From: a virus
Reading direction: 5' to 3' (one strand)
IMG/VR virus record: IMGVR_UViG_3300025420_000020
Span: 1 to 24,372 of that record
DNA: 24,372 nt
Shown: piece by piece, positions 1,448 to 3,474 of the stretch
How the letters are laid out: each line of letters opens with the position of its first letter
Position numbering within the stretch: the first letter of the stretch is position 1
Notes under the pieces: model-generated
The model's input: the letters and a program-made list of their open reading frames with translations, nothing else
Told to the model about the DNA's origin: nothing
Database searches by the model: none
Translations under genes and position numbers: made by a program

Positions 1448-1579
1448 CTATCGGATTGCGTGAGTGTTTTTGCCTTTGAAGGACTTCTTGAGGAGTTTAA
1501 ACCAAAACTTCCTCTCCTTCTTGGCATCTTTATTCAGTATAGCACGATAGAACTTTAAAATCAACTTTTTTGTTTTCAT
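1448..1579 (-). CDS. Very basic small protein (43 aa) upstream of gp33
   Basis: ATG 1579 to TAG 1448, with AAAGGACACTAAA as ribosome binding site, only 11 bases after the oxygenase gene stops. The end of the gene lies next to the gp33 ribosome binding site, so the two are probably co-transcribed. About a third of the residues are Lys or Arg (starts MKTKKLILKFYRAILNKDAK), with several aromatic residues. It could bind nucleic acid or RNA polymerase, but I know no family for it. Confidence 0.6.
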   Translation of the reverse strand: MKTKKLILKFYRAILNKDAKKERKFWFKLLKKSFKGKNTHAIR

Positions 1580-1590
1580 TTTAGTGTCCT

Positions 1591-2094
1591 TTAAATAAAG
1601 ATTTGAATTGTTACCCTAATTGGACTATTTTTAGTTAAACAAGTTACCGCATGTGGAACACCACCAACTTGTTCAATTGCTAAATTTTTTTCAGGTATTA
1701 TACCCTTAATTTCATTATTGTCCTCATAAAGAAATAATCCACCATCGTTTCTATTCCAATAATCATTAATATAAATTGTGAGTCCTCCTTTATGAACACC
1801 ATCATTATGCCAAGATATGTGACTTCCAGGAGTCCAAAAATAAATCATAATTCGTGATTTATTCATAATATTAAGTTTTTTTTCTACTTGATTTTTTATT
1901 TTATGATAAATAATATTATTAGTATCAATATCATGAATTAGTATTACATTACTATCTAATATAATACCTTTATGCCAAGAATAATTTGTTCTGAAAGAAT
2001 TTTTTCCGTTGGTGCATAGTGAATTGGAATACTCAACAACTTCGAAAAAAATTTCCGAATCAAAAAAATTTTTATGTTGTTTAATATATTTCAT
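1591..2094 (-). CDS. 2OG-Fe(II) oxygenase (prolyl 4-hydroxylase-like)
   Basis: The start is ATG 2094 (MKYIKQHKNFF); a longer frame from 2148 would run into the tmRNA. The 167-residue product has the double-stranded beta-helix signature: HND at WHNDG (the HxD pair of Fe ligands), the distal His at GGVPHAVT and a downstream Arg (SPIRVTIQ) for 2-oxoglutarate. Such enzymes hydroxylate proteins, nucleic acids or small molecules; the substrate here is unknown. AAAGGATCC serves as ribosome binding site and overlaps the 3' end of the tmRNA. The gene is much richer in A+T than its neighbours (6 G/C in the 60 bases at 1861-1920), which suggests recent gain. It is one of three such genes in the window. 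Confidence 0.85.
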   Translation of the reverse strand: MKYIKQHKNFFDSEIFFEVVEYSNSLCTNGKNSFRTNYSWHKGIILDSNVILIHDIDTNNIIYHKIKNQVEKKLNIMNKSRIMIYFWTPGSHISWHNDGVHKGGLTIYINDYWNRNDGGLFLYEDNNEIKGIIPEKNLAIEQVGGVPHAVTCLTKNSPIRVTIQIFI

Positions 2095-2104
2095 TTTAGG
2101 ATCC

Positions 2105-2396
2105 TTTGTGAGGTGCCGGATTCTGTTTCTAGGCTCCGGCGGGCCCAATGATTATGCTGCTAGAGCAAGATCAAATGATGCAAAGTTATCGTTAGCACCT
2201 AACGTTGCTTTCGGTCTCCTTGAACCCTTACTACACCAGTCGATCCTATTTCTGCCCCATCAAAGATACACCAATAATCCCTCACTTTCTTAGGCAACCC
2301 TTTCGGGTCTGGGGCCCTTGACGTATCTATGGTGGAGCAGCCGGGTACCGCCCCCGGGTCCTGAGTGTCTATGCCGTTCCTCTCAACGACCTAAGC
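2105..2396 (-). ncRNA. ssrA: Transfer-messenger RNA, circularly permuted (two-piece) form
   Basis: Read on the minus strand, an acceptor piece (about 2396-2330) comes first, then a spacer (2329-2259), then the coding piece (2258 to about 2105). The acceptor piece ends in CTGCTCC-ACCA, whose first seven bases pair with GGGGCAG at the start of the coding piece, including the G3-U70 wobble that marks alanine tRNAs. GGATCGACTGG matches the conserved D-loop region of tmRNA. The tag frame (2196-2152) encodes ANDNFASFDLALAA and stops at TAA; with the charged Ala the tag is 15 residues. CCTCACAA near the coding 3' end can pair with TTGAGAGG of the acceptor piece with one mismatch. The spacer arms AGATAC and GTATCT close the loop to be removed. 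ANDN tags and permuted genes are typical of alphaproteobacteria. Piece ends are approximate. Confidence 0.93.
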
Positions 2397-2405
2397 ATAT
2401 TATTT

Positions 2406-2433
2406 ATTATATACTATTTTTTGGAAATGTCAA
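2406..2433 (-). promoter_or_regulatory. Sigma70-like promoter of the tmRNA
   Basis: TTGACA (2433-2428), 16-base spacer and TATAAT (2411-2406) on the minus strand, both hexamers perfect. The predicted start is near 2399, just before the acceptor piece of the tmRNA. The -35 box lies inside the last codons of the 63-residue gene. It should work with host polymerase early in infection. Confidence 0.75.
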
Positions 2434-2605
2434 GGGGTATTTTTTGCCAACTCAATGTGCCATCTGAGGAATAACCAATATAAACTTCACCGGTTTCCAT
2501 GTCTATTAGTTTCCATTTTTCAGGACACTTGGTATAAACTGTTAGTGTTTTGGCATTTTTGAGTTCAATAACTTCTTCGCCTGTTATGAGTTTTCTTTTT
2601 TTCAT
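2414..2605 (-). CDS. Small unknown protein (63 aa), upstream of tmRNA
   Basis: The product starts MKKRKLITGEEVIELKNAK and is rich in Lys and beta-forming residues (KWKLIDMETGEVYIGY). It looks like a small all-beta domain and resembles short hypothetical proteins of T4-like phages, but I cannot name a function. The ATG at 2605 has only a modest ribosome binding site (CAGGTG) and lies 2 bases after a TAA in an upstream frame. Its 3' end carries the tmRNA promoter. Confidence 0.7.
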   Translation of the reverse strand: MKKRKLITGEEVIELKNAKTLTVYTKCPEKWKLIDMETGEVYIGYSSDGTLSWQKIPLDISKK

Positions 2606-2674
2606 TATTATTGCACCTGATTTTCAAACTCTTCCATCTGTGGCGCACCAACACCACGATGGTCACGGGAACCA

Positions 2675-2788
2675 TTAGTTACAGGGGCGACTAGTGTTGT
2701 CCCGTATAAGGCAGTCTGCGATGGTGATAGTGTTACAGCTAGCCAAACCAAGACAAAGAAACACCATTATTGGTAGAAAGTATTTCAT
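2675..2788 (-). CDS. Small predicted lipoprotein (37 aa)
   Basis: ATG 2788 overlaps the stop of the exonuclease gene (ATGA), and GGGAGG lies about 9 bases upstream. The peptide MKYFLPIMVFLCLGLASC is a signal peptide ending in a lipobox (LASC), leaving a mature lipoprotein of about 20 residues with two more Cys. Small outer membrane lipoproteins of this size in phages are often o-spanins (Rz1-like), but the proline-rich tail typical of Rz1 is absent, so immunity or entry-exclusion roles are also possible. A second frame over the same DNA (ending 2608) also looks protein-like; see findings. Confidence 0.6.
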   Translation of the reverse strand: MKYFLPIMVFLCLGLASCNTITIADCLIRDNTSRPCN

Positions 2789-3474
2789 AGTTCATATTCC
2801 TCCCTAAACTGGACAATCTTATCATATAATCCTTTAACATAATCTGTCCGTCTTTTGACGAATACCTGTGGATGGATTTCGTGGTCTACGGATATCAATA
2901 CAACAATCTGTCTGGCCTGGATGCCAGTCATATCCTCATACATCAAAGAGTATGCGGTGCATTGTTCAAAGTAGTTTAAAATCCATTCCTCTTTCTTAGG
3001 TTTCAATGAGGTCTTGAAGTCAATAATGGAAGTGAGACCATCAAACTCGGCAATACAATCAACCTGACCTGCCAGTCCGATGGCCTCACTATACAGCATT
3101 GCCTCAACATAATGGACGTTATCAATACGTTCCAATGTTGGCAACATATTACGGAATGCCTGTTTCATATCAGGCATAAGAGCATCATTATAGTATGTGG
3201 AATGTTCCTCGTTCTTGATGTAGGATTCCATTAACGAGTGGAACTTGGTACCTCTAGAAGATGCTCTTGCAGAAACTCTATTTGCTTCTTCTTCACCAAC
3301 CCGTTTCCGCCACTTTGCAATGCTATCGCCTTTAAAATGAGACAAGAAGGTTGTAACAGATGGCAGTTTAGTGCCATTTGGAGAGATGTAGTATCGTTTT
3401 CCATTTATTTCTTCCCTTTTCAGAGTAGTTAGAAAGTGGTCATGGTTTAAATGATTAAAAGTTTTCACTAGCAT
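2785..3474 (-). CDS. PD-(D/E)XK superfamily exonuclease, RecB/Cas4-like
   Basis: The 229-residue product carries the nuclease core in the order seen in RecB-family exonucleases: RGTKFHSLMESY (motif with His near residue 78), GLAGQVDCIAEFDG (metal-binding Asp) and SIIDFKTS (D-x-K catalytic pair), followed by EQCTAYSLMYEDMTG, the QxxxY motif. Such enzymes in T4-like phages are thought to act in recombination or DNA degradation. The ATG at 3474 lies about 25 bases after the predicted start of its own promoter (3508-3536), with GAGGACG as a distant ribosome binding site; GTG at 3468 is an alternative start. It ends in an ATGA overlap with the lipoprotein gene. Confidence 0.85.
   Translation of the reverse strand: MLVKTFNHLNHDHFLTTLKREEINGKRYYISPNGTKLPSVTTFLSHFKGDSIAKWRKRVGEEEANRVSARASSRGTKFHSLMESYIKNEEHSTYYNDALMPDMKQAFRNMLPTLERIDNVHYVEAMLYSEAIGLAGQVDCIAEFDGLTSIIDFKTSLKPKKEEWILNYFEQCTAYSLMYEDMTGIQARQIVVLISVDHEIHPQVFVKRRTDYVKGLYDKIVQFREEYEL

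Follow-up and report, generated by a model that had tools for sequence, protein, structure and literature searches.

A circularly permuted two-piece tmRNA gene of alphaproteobacterial type beside gp33 and gp59 in a T4-type phage

A gene that very probably encodes a functional tmRNA of the circularly permuted, two-piece alphaproteobacterial type, and that would be a stable part of the early/middle region of a T4-type phage, was found in the IMG/VR record IMGVR_UViG_3300025420_000020, of which positions 1 to 24,372 were analysed and are termed the window hereafter. The Rfam model RF01849 (alpha_tmRNA) matched the minus strand at 2437-2112 over its whole length (model positions 1-355 of 355), with 114.1 bits against a cut-off of 50 and an E-value of 8.8e-31, and the model RF04321 (tmRNA_permuted) matched the same strand at 2391-2152 with 96.4 bits against a cut-off of 47. 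The initial annotation, which was made from the letters alone, had proposed such a tmRNA and named covariance models as the check on it; both scores are significant and strongly support the proposal. A separate search returned the same match in the window, with Caulobacter vibrioides being the sole positive among 14 control genomes, while ARAGORN reported no tmRNA in the window. The strand, which had been left unstated beforehand, is the minus strand.

The Rfam alignment places the acceptor piece 5' of the coding piece with a spacer between the two (Table 1), which is the order that had been predicted. The acceptor stem GGGGCAG/CTGCTCC with its G3-U70 pair, the CCA end, the stem in the spacer and a tag of the ANDN...ALAA form are likewise all present as first described. 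The tag, ANDNFASFDLALAA, is common to the stretches L006, L014, L015 and L016.

Table 1. Features of the tmRNA gene and its neighbourhood in the window
Feature	Position	Strand	Remarks
PhoH-like protein	4397-3540	-	PF02562, 152 bits
PDDEXK (Cas4-like) exonuclease	3474-2785	-	PHROG 298, E 4e-70; PF12705
63-aa protein	2605-2414	-	function unassigned; upstream of tmRNA; its 3' end contains the -35 box
Sigma-70 promoter TTGACA-16-TATAAT	2433-2406	-	12/12 consensus positions; just upstream of acceptor piece
Acceptor (tRNA-like 3') piece	~2398-2330	-	RF01849/RF04321 alignment, pair counts; 5' end inferred from promoter
Acceptor-piece inter-piece strands	TGCT 2397-2394; GGTC 2391-2388; GAAC 2379-2376; CAC-T-CAG 2367-2361	-	
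T arm	2357-2341	-	in acceptor piece
Acceptor 3' strand CTGCTCC	2340-2334	-	
Discriminator A and CCA	2333-2330	-	CCA 2332-2330
Intervening spacer, 71 nt	2329-2259	-	presumably removed in processing
Spacer end stem	AGATAC 2328-2323 / GTATCT 2269-2264	-	stacked on acceptor stem (fold, pair counts)
Coding piece	2258-~2112	-	Rfam alignment, pair counts; 3' end inferred from model end
Acceptor 5' strand GGGGCAG	2258-2252	-	in coding piece, which also holds the D-loop block
Coding-piece strands	CTGGTG 2239-2234; GTTC 2225-2222; GACC 2216-2213; AGCA 2209-2206	-	
Tag reading frame	2196-2152	-	resume codon GCT 2196-2194, tag ANDNFASFDLALAA, then TAA
3' pseudoknot	2146-2115	-	GCCGGA 2140-2135/TCCGGC 2120-2115; GGGC 2146-2143/GCCT 2134-2131
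167-aa protein	2094-1591	-	weak matches to 2OG-Fe(II) oxygenase (Pfam, below cut-off) and to a PHROG labelled 'endonuclease V'
gp33-like late-transcription coactivator	1527-1210	-	PF16805, 72.5 bits; PHROG 254
gp59-like DNA helicase loader	1213-608	-	PF08993/PF08994; PHROG 269

Minimum-free-energy folding alone separated the sequence only modestly from its shuffles (z -2.0), and covariation was used in its place. In an alignment of 24 T4-type sequences of one length class, window included, in which 52 base pairs were counted, 87.1% of the cells pair, compared with 41-48% after a shift of the partners by 1-3 columns, and changes on both sides are found in 25 of the 52 pairs, with a covariation score of 0.374 versus 0.162 in shuffles. 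The acceptor stem and the T arm are paired in 100% of cells, the spacer stem in 99.3% with both-sided changes in all six of its pairs, and G3-U70 and CCA are invariant (24/24), which gives the alanine identity. Since this alignment is loose in the region of the 3' pseudoknot, the latter was tested on 124 distinct phage sequences, where it was found in 89% as against 13% of shuffles and with 66 different stem-1 sequences. Moreover, the 171 phage tags read among the matches listed comprise 88 distinct sequences; all 171 end in AA, 146 of the 171 end in LAA, and in 165 an A stands at position -4 relative to the resume codon; the ANDN start of the tag was imposed by the search pattern and is not counted as evidence. 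Each of the parts that a trans-translation RNA requires is present and, judged from these comparisons, looks selected. A hairpin of the form CGTTAG-GTG-CTAACG (2204-2190, minus), the stem of which holds part of the resume codon, is preserved in full by the window and its closest relatives alone; its six pairs are poorly kept in the 24-sequence alignment (40-76%), and it is therefore not claimed in general.

These data also bear on the notion that the phage RNA is a decoy, which would bind host SmpB or stalled ribosomes and thereby inhibit trans-translation of the host. A precedent is offered by phage DS6A, whose tmRNA consists of the tRNA-like domain only and carries no tag frame (PMC4131195), and a molecule like this tag-less form is a strong inhibitor of tmRNA, an effect that may come from titration of SmpB (PMC4131195; also PMC11915505). 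A decoy would, however, have no need of a tag, whereas the tag frame, the resume codon context, the LAA end and the 3' pseudoknot are under selection in many relatives, which makes this explanation improbable.

The stretch from the inter-piece helices to the tag is about 20 nt shorter in the window than in the RF01849 model and therefore leaves no room for pseudoknot 1, an element that is usual between tRNA-like domain and tag, although it is not required by the family models and is not taken here as defining for reduced two-piece forms. No H-type pseudoknot upstream of the tag was detected in any of the 26 sequences of the length class of the window; in the 78-90 nt class it was found in 33%, compared with 22% of the shuffles of that class, which makes the test a weak one. 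An apparent loss of pseudoknot 1 in the subgroup of the window is suggested. A second viral group (L009-L013, L145, L147, L155, L168, L181, L186, L204, L236 and L248), none of which shows T4-type neighbours, has a tag that starts only 46-48 nt from the beginning of the coding piece, which leaves pseudoknot 1 no space, and its inter-piece helix is apparently a different one.

The promoter of its own that had been noted for the tmRNA was borne out as a full match to the sigma-70 consensus, and it predicts a transcript start near 2399, almost exactly at the start of the acceptor piece. Promoters with at least 10 of the 12 consensus positions occur in 80% of 25 T4-type relatives, as opposed to 3.4% of shuffles, at a distance that is nearly fixed in most of them. 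A second 12/12 sigma-70 promoter was observed at 3536-3508 (minus), directly upstream of the PDDEXK exonuclease gene. The next gene downstream, that of the 167-aa protein, starts at 2094 at a distance of 18 nt from the tmRNA, with no terminator-like site detected in the interval. The genes for PhoH, the PDDEXK exonuclease, the 63-aa protein, the tmRNA, the 2OG-like protein, gp33 and gp59 follow one another on the same strand. The initial annotation had placed the tmRNA beside genes 33, 59 and 32, which is confirmed for gp33 and gp59 but not for gene 32: at the left edge of the window there is only a 39-aa open fragment, the 23-aa core of which matched no PHROG.

That the sequence is a piece of bacterial chromosome mis-binned as viral is scarcely credible in such surroundings, even though the record is an IMG/VR fragment: the T4-type genes for PhoH, gp33, gp59 and T4 RNase H flank the tmRNA on both sides on the same strand, and the isolated phage Melnitz (MZ577097, Kyanoviridae) shares an alpha-type permuted tmRNA, annotated there as SsrA, in the same order, PhoH-PDDEXK nuclease-small genes-tmRNA-gp33-gp59. 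In addition, the 20-base string GGGGCAGAAATAGGATCGAC has a single match in genome_contigs (84,980 species), which by inspection lies outside any tmRNA.

Scans of IMG/VR with a permuted-tmRNA pattern gave about 248 stretches at least, window included, many of which are short, so that no frequencies are derived from them. In at least 107 of the 248 stretches listed, gp33/gp59 lies no more than 3 kb downstream or PDDEXK/PhoH no more than 5 kb upstream; at least 67 carry both together. ARAGORN reported a tmRNA in 160 of 251 pattern-positive stretches and missed it in 91 (among the matches listed), and censuses based on this program may accordingly undercount phage tmRNAs. A DNA search of phage records gave only short matches of 35-43 bases, to Rhodobacteraceae phages. 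The present case suggests that many marine T4-type phages stably keep the tmRNA next to their gp33-gp59 module and that it is no accidental capture. It is true that many mobile elements integrate at ssrA and that capture by a temperate phage has been suggested as a possible origin (PMC9004378), from which one might picture a host ssrA copy, acquired recently, for example through prophage excision, and now decaying without function. Such a history is highly improbable, since it is contradicted by the compensatory changes across diverged phages, by the conserved position of the promoter and by the location between PDDEXK and gp33, which is shared among phages with gp59 proteins of often no more than 30-50% identity; moreover, no integrase was found among the window genes examined. 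A more far-reaching proposal is that a large marine T4-type clade harbours a phage-specific, vertically inherited lineage of minimal two-piece tmRNAs lacking pseudoknot 1, which would be dedicated to early-infection rescue with host SmpB and would perhaps steer tagged proteins differently from the host tmRNA; we consider it conceivable but rather unlikely.

The kind of gene described here is already known, as two-piece tmRNAs in the corresponding position of marine relatives were published before. In 2022, a two-piece alpha-type tmRNA with an early promoter upstream was reported directly upstream of gp33 in the T4-like phage Melnitz, together with a set of 53 two-piece tmRNAs from phage genomes, of which 50 are marine or aquatic, and with a tmRNA in 17 of 47 Melnitz-like contigs (PMC9004378); a further compilation lists 79 bacteriophage tmRNA sequences (PMC11915505). 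With these cases and the T4-type neighbourhoods counted above, the expectation that a permuted tmRNA would be unusual in a T4-type phage is not supported. The modestly new points are the lineage itself, how broadly the synteny extends, and the apparent loss of pseudoknot 1 in a subgroup; a clear, structurally supported case is hereby added to the little-studied phage tmRNAs. The window differs from Melnitz in tag and acceptor stem and in the extra 2OG-like gene between the tmRNA and gp33. Melnitz also has a glutamine riboswitch 3' of its tmRNA (L018:3434-3482), whereas none was detected at window positions 1500-3000 up to an E-value of 5, and by inspection it seems to keep a pseudoknot upstream of the tag, which the window appears to lack. 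With alphaproteobacterial tmRNAs (RF01849; Caulobacter ssrA), the gene of the window shares the permuted arrangement with the acceptor piece first, the alpha-type T loop GGCGGTA, a tag of the ANDN...AA type and the 3' pseudoknot, while its spacer is longer and contains a stem and its acceptor stem reads GGGGCAG as compared with the RF01849 consensus GGGGGCG. As bacterial donor of the same acceptor variant, the single genome_contigs match (L253) was considered and rejected as a chance match without tmRNA.

The reading of the gene as a functional tmRNA draws on structure, tag, covariation, promoter position, gene order and the absence of SmpB in the records searched, all of them shown by sequence; that the RNA is transcribed, processed, charged and used for tagging, and that the phage gains from it, is inferred. 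In tmRNAs generally, RNase P and 3' processing yield the two pieces, alanyl-tRNA synthetase reads G3-U70 and ClpXP reads the LAA end. In the phage, one precursor would be transcribed early from the 2433-2406 promoter by host RNA polymerase with the main sigma factor, and the spacer would be removed by the tRNA-processing enzymes of the host, with RNase P acting at G2258 and a 3' nuclease trimming back to the CCA at 2330. Both pieces would then be held together by the acceptor stem and the TGCT, GGTC, GAAC and CAC/CAG helices, and charged by alanyl-tRNA synthetase via G3-U70. Host SmpB and EF-Tu would bring the charged tmRNA to ribosomes stalled on broken mRNA, where translation would restart at GCT and append ANDNFASFDLALAA, whose LAA end would direct the product to ClpXP-type proteases while the ribosome is recycled. 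In infected cells, cleaved mRNAs are presumably frequent and would stall ribosomes, which would be a reason for the phage to keep a tmRNA; its gain would be that ribosomes and amino acids stay available during mRNA cleavage in infection.

A search for SmpB that was positive in 10 of 14 control bacteria gave no such gene in the window and none in 17 further records of phages, among them the complete genomes of Melnitz, DSS3_MAL1 and RcRudolph, and the SmpB of the host would therefore be used. An alphaproteobacterial host is plausible for the phage, because its ribonucleotide reductase is 60-67% identical to the enzymes of Roseobacter, Rhizobium, Sinorhizobium and Puniceispirillum phages. The tmRNA itself had been taken to point to the host group, which is weak ground: Melnitz combines an alpha-type tmRNA with a host of the Methylophilales (OM43) (PMC9004378), so that the host cannot be read from the type of tmRNA by itself.

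Permuted alpha-type tmRNAs occur as well in the large roseophages DSS3_MAL1 and MD18 (149 kb) and in Rhodobacter phage RcRudolph (RF04321, 104-119 bits), where, unlike that of the window, they lie outside the gp33/gp59 setting. The tmRNAs of mycobacteriophages (Bxz1, Wildcat) and of Bacillus phage G, which are also phage genes, are known as one-piece forms, in contrast with the two-piece molecule of the window. In DSS3_MAL1 and MD18 the tmRNA is near tRNAs, and a tRNA-containing GOLLD RNA (RF02032, 160-170 bits) adjoins it just upstream (L002:1402-1865 and L004:1245-1712, respectively). The permuted tmRNAs of RcRudolph (L003:1942-2306) and MD18 (L004:1923-2338) are unannotated in the public records, and that of RcRudolph is overlapped by a coding sequence called as a hypothetical protein.
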